From Thermanaeromonas toyohensis ToBE (lineage in GTDB: Bacteria; Bacillota; DSM-521; Neomoorellales; Neomoorellaceae), in contig NZ_LT838272.1 in assembly GCF_900176005.1 (NCBI RefSeq), positions 3,187,501 through 3,251,500 on the forward strand: 64,000 nucleotides of DNA, written 5' to 3'. Positions 3,334 through 36,243 of the stretch are shown here, piece by piece. A model generated the notes under the pieces. It ran no database searches and was not told the DNA's origin. It was given only the letters and a program-made list of their open reading frames with translations. A program made the translations under genes and the position numbers. Positions within the stretch are counted from its first letter, which is position 1, and each line of letters begins with the position of its first letter.

Positions 3334-3433
3334 CTAGGTCTCCTCCTTTTGTTTTGTATTTCGACGTCATTTATTCTCAAACGAAAGTGTTATTTCGTCA
3401 TTACCTTAAGAACTCCTGCCGTCAGAATAAAAT

Positions 3434-3899
3434 TTGATTGACAGCTTAAGGGTGATGATGGGAAAATTAGGCTTGGTGATCTTGGTGGGTAAATCACTTA
3501 TACCTGGTTTAGCCTTACTAGGAGTTGCGTTTGTTTGGGGCGCAACCTTTTATTTTGTACGTGAAGCCCTAAAGGACATAGCTCCCTTCCACTTCCTCTT
3601 TTACCGTTTCATATTAGCCTCACTCTTTCTCCTGGCCCTAACTATAAAGGAGCGGCCCTCATGGACGCGCAAGACCACAACCCACGGTTTTATGGGTTGC
3701 TGCCTTTCTCATACAGCTAAAGGTTCAACGTTACCTCTCTGCCGCAGCCACAGCAGTGATACTCGCTACAGAGCCGGTTTTCGGTGCCCTCATCGCCTAT
3801 ACCTTCGGTGGCGAAATCTTAACTTTAAAACAACTTTTAGGATGCGCCCTTATACTTGTAAGCATATTGTTCATACAAATTGCAGCTAAAAAAGTCTAA
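3434..3899 (+). pseudogene. EamA/DMT-family transporter remnant with internal deletion and frame change
   Basis: The 5' part encodes a normal EamA N-terminus (LALLGVAFVWGATFYFVREAL, FHFLFYRFILASLFLLAL) up to about 3660. After about 3685 a different frame encodes the family C-terminus (YLSAAATAVILATEPVFGAL, TLKQLLGCALILVSILF), stopping at TAA 3897-3899. Together about 135 residues remain of a normal 290-300, so the middle of the protein is missing and the two parts are out of frame. It cannot make a working permease. It may still be transcribed divergently from the ABC operon. Confidence 0.85.
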
Positions 3900-3945
3900 C
3901 AAGAAAACAACAAGTCGGCCCTCTTGCTACTTTAGTCCTCTCATA

Positions 3946-4857
3946 TTAATCTGCCAACCGGAAATGGGGGCTAGCTTCATAGGCCAGGCGCAGGGCCTCT
4001 CTATACTCCTCCGTTGTAATCCGCCTAGTGAGAAGAGGATAACGGTGGGCCTCCCCTGCTGGGTAATACTGGCTCATGATATTGATATAAGAGTAAGGGG
4101 ATATCTCCCGGGCGATAAACTCTAAAACCTCTTTAGTACCGGCTAGGCCTCCAGGTAAAACCAAATGCCGGATGATGAGCCCCTTTCTCGCTATACCTCC
4201 CTCATCCAATTCCAGATCCCCCACCTGGCGGTGCATTTCTTTAATGGCCTCTTGGGCTACCTGAGGATAATCAGGAACCTTGGATAAGCGCCGACCCACT
4301 TCAGCATCGGCATATTTAAAATCAGGCATATAAATATCTATGATACCCTCAATGGCCCTTAAGGTTGCCGTTTCCTCATAACCTCCACAGTTATATACTA
4401 ACGGTAAACGTAAACCCTGTTCTGCTGCTATGGCTAAAGCTGCTATTATCTGGGGAACATAATGGGAAGGAGTAACTAGATTGATATTGTGGCAACCCCG
4501 CTCTTGCAAGGCTAGCATGATACGCGCAAGTTTCTCTAAGGAAACCTTTTCACTCTGCCAACCCCGGCTGATCTCGTAATTCTGGCAGAAAACGCAAGCC
4601 AAATTGCAGTGGCTAAAAAATATAGTCCCCGATCCTCCCCGGCCAACTAAGGGAGGCTCCTCCCCAAAGTGGGGACCGTAACCCCCTATCTCTACCTCAA
4701 AACCTGCTCGGCAGAATCCCTTCTCCCCTTTCTGCCGGTTCACATGACAATGATGGGGGCAGACAGTGCAGTCCTTAAGGAGATCCATTAATTCTAAAGC
4801 TATTTCCTTGAGTCTGCCTCCCTTAAGCTTATCCAAGTAGCCCGGGTAGCTCGCCAT
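3946..4857 (-). CDS. radical SAM protein, PflX-like (pyruvate-formate-lyase-activating-enzyme family)
   Basis: 303 residues. The radical SAM cluster motif is C-x3-C-x2-C at Cys84, Cys88 and Cys91 (CNLACVFC). An N-terminal cysteine group (C30, C33, C37, C49) may hold a second metal site. The protein fits the stand-alone COG1313-type subfamily, whose substrate is not known. No pyruvate formate-lyase or other glycyl radical enzyme is nearby, so calling it a true PFL activase would be overreach. Its downstream neighbour is a dead transporter, so context is uninformative. Confidence 0.85.
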   Translation of the reverse strand: MASYPGYLDKLKGGRLKEIALELMDLLKDCTVCPHHCHVNRQKGEKGFCRAGFEVEIGGYGPHFGEEPPLVGRGGSGTIFFSHCNLACVFCQNYEISRGWQSEKVSLEKLARIMLALQERGCHNINLVTPSHYVPQIIAALAIAAEQGLRLPLVYNCGGYEETATLRAIEGIIDIYMPDFKYADAEVGRRLSKVPDYPQVAQEAIKEMHRQVGDLELDEGGIARKGLIIRHLVLPGGLAGTKEVLEFIAREISPYSYINIMSQYYPAGEAHRYPLLTRRITTEEYREALRLAYEASPHFRLAD

Positions 4858-33049: not shown

Positions 33050-33255
33050 AGGCGGCACTCCTTAAACTCTATGTGCATTTAAATTTATTCTGCAGTTTTA
33101 TTGTAACTTAAAGGATACAGACCTGTACAGGGCCTAAGTAGAATCCTCACATTTTTTACCTTAAAGAAGCAAGTTTTTCCTATACTAGCAGGAGAAAAAA
33201 CGTTGCTGTCGAATTGAATTTCTTATGAGCGAGCCACAAAATAGAGGTAGGAGAT

Positions 33256-33726
33256 ATGGTTAAAGAAACCTTCCCGGCTGCTATATATGCTCTTTTCTTG
33301 CAAGATTTTCCAGAAAGCCTTGCAATGAGTTTGCTTGTCTTTAGTATTCTAGGCCTTAAGCTGCGGGATAAGAGGATTATTTACATAGCTTTATTGCAAG
33401 CTTTAACTAATTTAGTGCGCCACCTTCCGATTGCTTTCGGGATGCATTCTGTCCTTTTGCTATTCTCCCTTGTTCTCTATACCAGGCTTTTCACCCGGCA
33501 GCCCCTAAGTAGGATTTTTCTGGCAGGGTTAGTTTGCTTTACTATATTGGCTATTTCTGAATTACTCTACACTAAGCCCCTCTTAAACTTAACAGGGATT
33601 CCGTATACTTATGCCTTTACTAATCCCTTCTTAAGGGCAGCCTTCGCCCTCCCGGGCGAGATAACCTTACTAGTTGTGGCCCTAGGGAAAAATTATTATA
33701 ACCAAAAGAAGGGGTTAATTTGCTAA
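33256..33726 (+). CDS. small membrane protein, AgrC-like sensor domain without kinase
   Basis: 156 residues with about five membrane segments, ATG after GGTAGGAGAT. No signal-processing residues are visible. In layout and pattern (KRIIYIALLQALTNLVRHLP, then FGMHSVLLLFSLVLY) it resembles, to my eye, the multi-pass sensor domain of clostridial AgrC-type histidine kinases, but it ends where the kinase would begin. It overlaps the agrB-like gene by 7 bp, so it belongs to the signalling operon. It may be a receptor, an export helper or an immunity-like protein. Confidence 0.5.
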   Translation: MVKETFPAAIYALFLQDFPESLAMSLLVFSILGLKLRDKRIIYIALLQALTNLVRHLPIAFGMHSVLLLFSLVLYTRLFTRQPLSRIFLAGLVCFTILAISELLYTKPLLNLTGIPYTYAFTNPFLRAAFALPGEITLLVVALGKNYYNQKKGLIC

Positions 33727-34361
33727 GGCTTAACTTAACCCGGCCGGCTGTGGCTTATTTAAGGGATAAGCTAGGTTTAAGCCCGGCGCAGGAAGAGGTA
33801 GCCTTGTACGGGCTGCAAATAATTACTTATAGCGCGGCAAACCTCTTCTCTGTGGTTATCGTAGGCCTATTTTTAGATTGCCTGGGGCCAGCCCTGGCTG
33901 CCACCGCCGCCGCAGGCATCTTACGTTTGTTTTCTGGCGGGGCCCATAGCCGCTCCCCTTTGACCTGTAATATCTTGGGTATGCTCGTCGCCGGATCCAT
34001 AGGAAAATTTTCTTCCTTTTTAGCCCCTTTGCTTCCTCCTTCTGGTTTGCTTCTTTTAGTCCTTATGGGGGCAGGGCTCGCTTTCCTTCCTTTTTTATTC
34101 CTTGCTCCAGTAGATTCGCCTAGTAAACCCCTTACCTCAAAGGAGCGCAAGAAAATGCGCCGGCTTTCTATAATCTTTTTCTTCCTCATCACTTTTTCGC
34201 AGGTAGGAATATTAGCCTTAAGGGGTCCTTCTTCTTTAGTGTGGGCCATAAGTTTAGGGGTCTGGTGGCAAGCCTTCAGCTTAACCCGCGCGGGGCAAGG
34301 CTTAGCCACTACTATAGATAAGCTTTTTAGTTTAAATCAAAGGGAGGTCCTGGGAGGATGA
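33720..34361 (+). CDS. agrB: AgrB-like accessory gene regulator peptidase
   Basis: 213 residues, TTG after AAGGGG. AgrB is a membrane cysteine protease that trims and cyclises the AgrD precursor into a thiolactone or lactone autoinducer. The catalytic pair is His76 and Cys83 in RLFSGGAHSRSPLTCNILG (His-x6-Cys, family spacing). Several membrane segments follow, with a basic loop SKERKKMRRL. The next gene (AgrD) starts in its stop codon. Confidence 0.85.
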   Translation: MLRLNLTRPAVAYLRDKLGLSPAQEEVALYGLQIITYSAANLFSVVIVGLFLDCLGPALAATAAAGILRLFSGGAHSRSPLTCNILGMLVAGSIGKFSSFLAPLLPPSGLLLLVLMGAGLAFLPFLFLAPVDSPSKPLTSKERKKMRRLSIIFFFLITFSQVGILALRGPSSLVWAISLGVWWQAFSLTRAGQGLATTIDKLFSLNQREVLGG

Positions 34362-34489
34362 AACGCCTGGTCTACCGCCTGCTCCCCACCATATTTTCTT
34401 TCTTGGCCTTGGCCGCCGCTGTAGGTGTTAAACCAACTTGTGCATTCTTCTGGTATCAGCCGGAAGTCCCCAAGGCCCTAAGGAAGTAA
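34358..34489 (+). CDS. agrD: AgrD-like cyclic autoinducer peptide precursor
   Basis: 43 residues; the ATG overlaps the agrB stop (ATGA) and follows GGGAGG. The N-terminal amphipathic helix is MKRLVYRLLPTIFSFLALAA, then the core and charged tail PTCAFFWYQPEVPKALRK. The Cys28 followed by aromatic residues and the tail QPEVP are the typical clostridial cyclic-lactone-autoinducer pattern. The expected product is a ring closed by Cys28, with sequence around TCAFFWY; the exact ends are not fixed by sequence. It was identified by translation of the agrB-downstream region. Confidence 0.85.
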   Translation: MKRLVYRLLPTIFSFLALAAAVGVKPTCAFFWYQPEVPKALRK

Positions 34490-34500
34490 CTTAAGTAAAG

Positions 34501-34528
34501 GGGTACCGGTTCGCCCCGCCCGGTACCC
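34501..34528 (+). other. stable hairpin between agrD and the GGDEF/HD-GYP gene
   Basis: GGGTACCGG (34501-34509) pairs with CCGGTACCC (34520-34528) around a 10-base loop. No T-run follows, so it is not a terminator; it may be an mRNA processing or stability element. A weaker alternative pairs GGTTCG with CGAACC. Confidence 0.5.
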
Positions 34529-34575
34529 GAACCAAACAGAAAGTACGCGGGTGGTGACCGGAGGAGAGCTAAACG

Positions 34576-36243
34576 ATGCGCCCATGGGAACATAAAAGAG
34601 CAACCGAGATCTCAGAATATGTTATAGTTACACATATTAGCTCTCTTTTAATCTTCCTAATGATTATTTTTAGTTTTTATAACCTACCCTTAGGCTCAGG
34701 CTTACCGGTGGCACTAGTATTCGCATTTGTCATTTCTGCCTTGGGAATAACAGTATATACCGCCCGCAAGATATTGCCCAAAATCCTACCCTTAGGGCCA
34801 TCTAGATTAGATGAAATACTCCTTCTTCTGGTGGTCTTCCCGCTGACCTTCATTTTCTTATGGGTTAGCCATAACTTTTATGGCGCCAAGGTCCTCATCC
34901 TGGTCCCCGCTATAATCGCTGCCACCGCCTTTGGTAAGGCTATGGGGACCATCGGAGCCATCCTAGCCTCGGGATTGCTTTTCTTTCTGGATTACAGGCT
35001 CTACCTTCACTTTCCTCCGGAAGTGTTTCAAACCGATGTTATTGTGAGCTCTGTGATAATCTTGCTCTCCTGGCTTATGGGAGGATTGATGGAGGTAGAA
35101 CGCCGGGCTCAAAAAGAATTGTTGCAGCTCGCCGATTACGACCAGCTCACCGGGCTTTATAACCACCGTTGCCTCCAAGAAAAGCTGGCCTTATCCTTAA
35201 AGGAAGCAGCGGAAAAAGGCCAGCCCCTTACGGTAGTGCTCCTCGACATAGATCAGTTTAAATACTATAACGCTGTCTATGGATACCAGAAGGGAGACGA
35301 AATTTTAGCTGCCATTGGTAAATTGCTCCTAGAGGAGCTACTCTCCCCTTTTTACGCGGCCCGTTATGCCAACGACGAGTTCGCCCTGGTCTTCCCTGGT
35401 AAGGAAAAAGAAAGGGCTTTAAAAATGCCCACAGAATTAAAAGAAAAGATCGCCCAGGCAGCTACTTTGTGCTTACTAGAAAGCCATCTGGAGCCCCCTT
35501 CCAAGCCTTTCGCTTTAACCATGGGTTCCGCCAGTTTCCCCGATGATGCCGACACAGCTTTACCCCTTATCCGGGCTGCCGAAAACGATCTGTTCAGGGC
35601 CAAATCTAGCCAAGGTAAGGCTCGCCTTTACCAGTCCATTTTAAGCGAGATCTGCGCCTTAAAAATTAAGGAAGCCTTCCCTACCTTGCAAACCTTAGTA
35701 GCCCTTATTAATACTAAGGACAGATATACCTACGGCCACTCGGAAAGGGTCATGTCTTATGCCCTGGCCCTCGCCGAAAAGTTAAATCTTCCCGAAGAAG
35801 ATAAAGATGCTCTACGTTATGGCTCCTACCTTCACGACCTAGGAAAGATTGAAATCGAAAGCAATCTCCTTAATAAAAATGGACCCTTAAATGACAAAGA
35901 ATGGGAGATTATGAAAACCCATCCTATATGGGGAAGTGAACTGGTTAAACCTTTAATATTTTTCCAAAAAATAGCACTTATACTTCGCTATCATCACGAA
36001 AACTATGATGGCTCCGGCTACCCGGACGGCCTAAAGGGAAAAGAAATTCCGTTATTGGCCCGCATCGTACGGCTAGCTGATAGCTTCGATGCTATGACCA
36101 CTGATCGCCCTTACCGGAAAGGCCTTACCTTTGAACAAGCAAGTGAAGAGTTAAAACGACACGCTGGGGTATTCTACGACCCCGAGCTAGTGAAACCCTT
36201 CCTAGAAGCTGTAAAAGAAATTTACCAGGCTGAAAAAAGTTAA
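34576..36243 (+). CDS. membrane GGDEF / HD-GYP signalling protein
   Basis: 555 residues, ATG after GGAGGAG. An N-terminal part of about 170 residues has several membrane segments. The GGDEF-type domain runs from about 185 to 345, but the active-site motif reads YANDEF (near 265), so cyclase activity is doubtful. The HD-GYP domain (about 370-550) is intact: HSERVMSYALALAE, the HD of SYLHDLGKIE (His420-Asp421) and HHENYDGSGYPDG (near 472). It would break down cyclic di-GMP and may bind GTP in the degenerate domain. It follows the agrBD genes, suggesting a link between peptide signal and c-di-GMP. Confidence 0.85.
   Translation: MRPWEHKRATEISEYVIVTHISSLLIFLMIIFSFYNLPLGSGLPVALVFAFVISALGITVYTARKILPKILPLGPSRLDEILLLLVVFPLTFIFLWVSHNFYGAKVLILVPAIIAATAFGKAMGTIGAILASGLLFFLDYRLYLHFPPEVFQTDVIVSSVIILLSWLMGGLMEVERRAQKELLQLADYDQLTGLYNHRCLQEKLALSLKEAAEKGQPLTVVLLDIDQFKYYNAVYGYQKGDEILAAIGKLLLEELLSPFYAARYANDEFALVFPGKEKERALKMPTELKEKIAQAATLCLLESHLEPPSKPFALTMGSASFPDDADTALPLIRAAENDLFRAKSSQGKARLYQSILSEICALKIKEAFPTLQTLVALINTKDRYTYGHSERVMSYALALAEKLNLPEEDKDALRYGSYLHDLGKIEIESNLLNKNGPLNDKEWEIMKTHPIWGSELVKPLIFFQKIALILRYHHENYDGSGYPDGLKGKEIPLLARIVRLADSFDAMTTDRPYRKGLTFEQASEELKRHAGVFYDPELVKPFLEAVKEIYQAEKS

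Follow-up and report, generated by a model that had tools for sequence, protein, structure and literature searches.

Agr, the standard example of a peptide quorum system, is regarded as a two-component system. The operon of Thermanaeromonas toyohensis ToBE described here shares with staphylococcal agrBDCA the His/Cys motif of AgrB, an AgrD with a five-residue ring started by Cys and a conserved proline-containing tail, and a membrane protein that matches the N-terminal half of AgrC-type receptors. Unlike the staphylococcal locus, it includes no receptor kinase, AgrA, or RNAIII; its predicted output is a c-di-GMP enzyme, and its promoter is of the sigma-H type rather than driven by AgrA. Clostridial agr loci lacking agrC and agrA are already known (PMC12312760; C. 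autoethanogenum, PMC8748961) and likewise contain agrBD with no linked agrA. However, their receptor is either unknown or an AgrC kinase, whereas the locus analysed here encodes a receptor half together with a c-di-GMP enzyme.

Two other systems are related in their output. In RpfC–RpfG, quorum sensing by DSF proceeds through a histidine kinase and a receiver domain to an HD-GYP output (PMC3609779, PMC5391125), so that a quorum signal is again coupled to an HD-GYP protein, but DSF is a fatty acid acting through a phosphorelay, whereas the signal here is predicted to be a cyclic peptide and no phosphorelay is present. In Vibrio cholerae, NspS, a periplasmic polyamine-binding protein (PMC5646818, PMC8079147), is a separate sensor that controls the membrane c-di-GMP enzyme MbaA, also without a phosphorelay; the counterpart of NspS in our locus is an AgrC-like half that is itself integral to the membrane, and the signal would be self-made. 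A literature search, mostly of open-access papers, found no report of agrBD in one operon with an HD-GYP gene.

Organization of the locus

The window, by which we mean the whole analysed stretch of 64,000 nucleotides, belongs to a complete genome of 3.33 Mb. The four open reading frames of the original prediction are all found on the plus strand at the coordinates given there, in the order SMALL, AgrB, AgrD, and GGDEF/HD-GYP protein (Table 1), and their overlaps and close spacing are as described: SMALL and AgrB share 7 nt, AgrB and AgrD overlap by ATGA, and a gap of 86 nt precedes the fourth gene. A hairpin within this gap (34501–34528) had been suggested to set relative expression, a role that its stability, at chance for its composition (folding z −0.01), and the absence of a terminator T-run do not support. 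The operon is flanked on the opposite strand by a D-Ala-D-Ala-ligase-like ATP-grasp gene upstream and a hydroxyethylthiazole kinase gene downstream.

Table 1. Features of the operon, in coordinates of the window
Feature	Coordinates	Strand	Profile match	Description
Sigma-H-type promoter	33190..33216	+		AGGAGAA, 17 nt from AGGA to GAAT; GTCGAATTG
SMALL	33256..33726	+		Multi-helix membrane protein of 156 aa; corresponds to the N-terminal sensor half of AgrC-type receptors, encoded as a separate protein
AgrB	33720..34361	+	PF04647, 5e-33	Peptidase/cyclase; TTG start; His76, Cys83
AgrD	34358..34489	+	TIGR04223	Precursor, 43 aa; predicted ring CAFFW (34439-34453), tail YQPEVPKALRK
Spacer	34490..34575	+		86 nt between AgrD and the fourth gene; GC-rich inverted repeat
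Fourth gene	34576..36243	+	GGDEF, 2e-29; HD_5, 1e-38	SENS-GGDEF-HD-GYP membrane protein, 555 aa
SENS	34576..35112	+		Six-helix input domain in the membrane, exchanged among outputs
GGDEF domain	35131..35613	+		Degenerate (ANDEF, FKYYNA); predicted catalytically dead or regulatory
HD-GYP domain	35692..36189	+		Motifs intact (HSERV, HDLGK, HHENYDGSGYP, RPYR); predicted c-di-GMP phosphodiesterase

A domain search found no kinase domain in the four-gene locus, and neither agrC nor agrA lies nearby; the AgrC–AgrA pair is thus missing, as had been claimed. The genome holds four agr systems, each with an AgrD of its own and with different cores: the operon in the window (ring CAFFW, SENS-GGDEF-HD-GYP), L036 (CYYLA, SENS-GGEEF-HD-GYP), L035 (STLAW, split kinase), and L034 (TGPWS, split kinase), the last of them with an IS110-family transposase gene inserted between agrB and agrD (3376-4656). 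None of these four AgrB genes has a LytTR gene near it, the three LytTR genes of the genome all being located elsewhere. A search for a better-linked agrC–agrA pair therefore found none, and no such pair competes for the signal of the window operon.

In a separate observation, sigK is split in this genome (G000:C1:2397404-2417523; L034, L240). Some 19.4 kb separate its N-terminal half (2417191-2417523) from its C-terminal half (2397404-2397751), and this interval carries a large serine recombinase, resembling a skin-like element. The N-terminal half is directly followed by one of the four agr systems; two relatives from the Moorella family (L044, L067) have an intact sigK directly upstream of the orthologous agr system.

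Conservation of the gene order

The four-gene order, which might have been lacking in relatives, is kept in 45 loci of at least 22 GTDB families in a sample covering one GTDB phylum, with a SENS-GGDEF-HD-GYP gene beside SMALL and AgrB and with differing flanks. Moorella mulderi, M. stamsii, and Desulfovirgula are among those that have it. A Thermanaeromonas MAG of the same GTDB genus (G001) is represented by locus L184 on a contig of 14407 bases.

SMALL and the sensor half of AgrC

SMALL has zero matches among Pfam and NCBIfam models. In a profile comparison with hhalign, stand-alone SMALL aligns over nearly its full length with the sensor half at the N-terminus of fused AgrC-type kinases (99.9%, E 4e-32), which identifies it as one half of an AgrC-type receptor and bears out the earlier description of a kinase-less AgrC-like protein. 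SMALL is found in three settings: next to a short AgrC-type kinase with two transmembrane helices ("split AgrC", as in L035), fused to a short kinase in proteins of 440-480 aa (L081, L090, L091, L165, L170, L172-L176, L180-L183), or next to a protein with SENS at its N-terminus. In the fused kinases, SPOB_a and GHKL domains of the AgrC type are present, and two of these proteins align collinearly with the staphylococcal AgrC model NF046015; the sensor halves alone do not match the NCBIfam (staphylococcal) AgrC model. The AlphaFold model of SMALL is confident (pLDDT 84), and a fold search of the PDB with it returned nothing below E 2, nor did a sequence search of the PDB yield a relevant match. 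The kinship of SMALL with the AgrC sensor thus rests on the fused AgrC-type kinases of related anaerobes. A search of phages for AgrB, intended to lead to a phage AgrC for comparison, gave no match.

SMALL is almost always present in the AgrB neighbourhoods of relatives, and a SMALL profile matches 138 of 398 genomes of the GTDB phylum sampled. For a scan of genome contigs, a close set took the place of a broad SMALL alignment, which was too little conserved. Several operons (L130, L132, L141, L148, L150, L167, L171) contain two or three SMALL genes in tandem, which suggests hetero-oligomeric or multi-peptide receptors.

The SENS domain and its outputs

SENS makes up residues 1-179 of the fourth protein, whose full-length AlphaFold model is weak (pLDDT 65) and usable only for the six SENS helices. 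In some members, this domain weakly resembles DUF4118, 6TM_PilS, and MASE1 (the best match, 1.5e-7, being to 6TM_PilS), with no match for the copy in the window. A duplication relating SMALL and SENS to each other was considered and rejected, as no homology was found between the two.

Among 67 non-redundant SENS genes tabulated around AgrB or SMALL, 48 have GGDEF/HD-GYP at the C-terminal end and 16 have a kinase there. The outputs comprise GGDEF/HD-GYP, a GAF-HisKA-REC hybrid, other, unrelated histidine kinases, or none, with SENS standing alone; both GGDEF/HD-GYP and kinase outputs occur together in locus L147. A SENS-GGDEF gene without HD-GYP (L144), positioned near a contig end, was left out of the counts. 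Because the table had been drawn around AgrB or SMALL, SENS was also searched on its own, and at least 66 of its 83 strong matches are no more than 2.5 kb away from AgrB or SMALL, several of the others being at contig ends. In a further group of loci (L138, L140, L143, L146, L152, L156, L158), SMALL and AgrB adjoin kinases of ~590-620 aa, the N-terminal part of which misses the SENS profile; these kinases are a possible further receptor partner of SMALL.

In four loci (L159, L161, L169, L179), SMALL adjoins a SENS-kinase and AgrB is absent, and the genome G107, complete in one contig, contains SMALL and SENS with no AgrB match genome-wide. The persistence of the two in these places separates SMALL from the making of the peptide and ties it to the receptor, and such pairs are candidate receptors for the peptides of other cells. 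In a tree of 135 SMALL domains, computed by a quick method and with low support for the deep split (51), the partner membrane domain (SENS or AgrC-type) changes ~5 times and the output within the SENS half 8 times.

State of the GGDEF and HD-GYP domains

In the protein from the window, GGDEF is replaced by ANDEF (within RYANDEF) and FKxxND by FKYYNA, and the GG(D/E)EF motif of an active diguanylate cyclase is missing. Near relatives have GSDEF, GNDEF, or GGDEF in this position, and more distant ones, including the second copy in the same genome (GGEEF in L036), have GGEEF or GGDEF. In turn, the signature residues of HD-GYP (HD, HHE, and GYP) are all present in the window protein and intact in nearly all proteins of the relatives. 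With a degenerate GGDEF motif and intact HD-GYP motifs, the net activity of the window protein is predicted to be the breakdown of c-di-GMP. HD-GYP enzymes can act on other cyclic dinucleotides too.

AgrB, AgrD, and the predicted signal

Both residues claimed for AgrB, His76 and Cys83, are present, and their H-x6-C spacing is found in all 123 AgrB proteins examined (104 with the strict pattern, 19 variants with the spacing unchanged). The 43-residue AgrD scores 40.1 bits with TIGR04223, compared to a cut-off of 19, and the identity assigned to it earlier stands; the core given for it, PTCAFFWY, was one residue too long. Across 94 AgrD sequences, the residue starting the ring is located five before an aromatic residue or His followed by QPEVP-like letters, and by this pattern the window ring consists of the five residues CAFFW, with Tyr in the removed tail. 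The ring starts with Cys in 49 of 52 SENS loci and with Ser or Thr in 36 of 42 other loci (Fisher p 3e-16, descent being ignored); the chemistry of the signal goes with the type of receptor. Some AgrD cores have Thr at the usual Cys/Ser position (TGPWS and TGFWS; L034 2921-3043, L067, L076) and are possible precursors of threonine lactone peptides.

Promoter and likely readers of c-di-GMP

The AGGA-N17-GAAT element upstream of the operon (33190-33214) fits the SigH motif mapped in Sporomusa, in which AGGA and GAAT are 17-18 nt apart (PMC12456013), and a SigH gene is present in the genome. This motif precedes 54 of 122 agr operons (26 of 63 of the SENS type and 28 of 59 others, versus ~2 each in shuffles) but only 28 of 507 neighbouring genes taken as controls, an enrichment across the family, in sets that include close relatives, which are not independent. 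The Spo0A box TGTCGAA, found upstream in 20 of 62 loci versus ~1 expected, was examined as well; it is almost confined to a single strand and often coincides with the −10 element of AGGA-N17-GAAT, which makes a sigma-H promoter the better explanation. Joint Spo0A control alongside sigma-H may still contribute.

Eight c-di-GMP-I riboswitches are present in the genome, adjacent to flgB-flgC, pilT-pilC, three chemoreceptor genes, a FapA-like gene, a CBS-domain gene, and an HD-domain gene, all named by eye from their translations. The genome contains ~16 GGDEF and ~16 HD-GYP genes.

Proposed mechanism and alternatives

The reading that we consider probable from these comparisons of sequence is that of an Agr-type operon in which SMALL and SENS form a peptide receptor controlling a c-di-GMP phosphodiesterase. 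AgrB would cut and cyclise AgrD to give a thiolactone peptide with the ring CAFFW, which would be read at the membrane by a two-protein receptor consisting of SMALL and of the SENS domain of the fourth protein. The signal would then pass through the last SENS helix to the GGDEF/HD-GYP part, altering the breakdown of c-di-GMP directly, with no phosphorelay or AgrA, the predicted output of the window copy being phosphodiesterase activity. We lean slightly to a peptide that activates, with c-di-GMP falling at high density. As cells enter stationary phase, the sigma-H promoter would activate the operon, and c-di-GMP would probably be read by the c-di-GMP-I riboswitches of flagellar, type IV pilus, and chemotaxis genes. 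In this scheme, the structure and binding of the peptide, the pairing of the receptor, the enzyme activity, and the sign are what we infer. The original prediction had named two possible sensors of the peptide, the stand-alone receptor and the membrane region of the HD-GYP protein; this reading is supported and can be sharpened to both acting as a pair, while the functional link to c-di-GMP stays at the level of a proposal.

SENS, with its weak likeness to DUF4118, 6TM_PilS, and MASE1, might sense something else, for instance a membrane protein, in the way that PilS detects pilin. SMALL alone could then be the peptide receptor, passing its signal to the partner by another route, with SENS detecting a different cue and the HD-GYP protein integrating the two inputs. 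This arrangement would suit both the resemblance of SENS to such sensor domains and its lack of homology with SMALL, as well as the fact that SMALL is the part common to AgrC-type kinases. We nevertheless judge it unlikely, since SENS is largely limited to loci with AgrB or SMALL and the SMALL family splits by the partner membrane domain, as expected if both cooperate.

The GGDEF/HD-GYP gene could also be a co-transcribed neighbour with an unrelated signal, placed next to agrBD through shared timing only. It does begin 86 nt downstream with no overlap, in a genome rich in GGDEF and HD-GYP genes, but the order persists across families while the flanks change, and the same position is held by kinases that have only SENS in common with it, which leaves this explanation quite improbable. 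Least credible of all is SMALL as a factor in peptide export or maturation (a stand-in for MroQ), with the fourth protein alone as the receptor: although the SMALL gene adjoins and overlaps agrB in the window, this role was rejected because many loci have SMALL fused to an AgrC-type kinase with no second SMALL copy and because SMALL persists beside SENS-kinases where AgrB is absent.

Implications

Whether the SMALL–SENS pair represents a general class seems to us evenly balanced. In each member, an AgrC sensor half would join SENS, a second membrane domain that plugs into c-di-GMP enzymes or unrelated kinases, to make a peptide receptor of two proteins. An Agr peptide could thereby control a second messenger directly, and the orphan SMALL–SENS pairs, which have no AgrB, would eavesdrop on the peptides of other cells.

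If the proposed model is true, the Agr peptide machinery reports to c-di-GMP without a phosphorelay across a branch of Gram-positive anaerobes that includes the acetogenic Moorella, and the AgrC receptor is built from separable halves. This would suggest where the receptor may be sought in agr loci that have no agrC and agrA, and the natural domain swaps would mark the sites at which a peptide receptor may be divided and joined anew.
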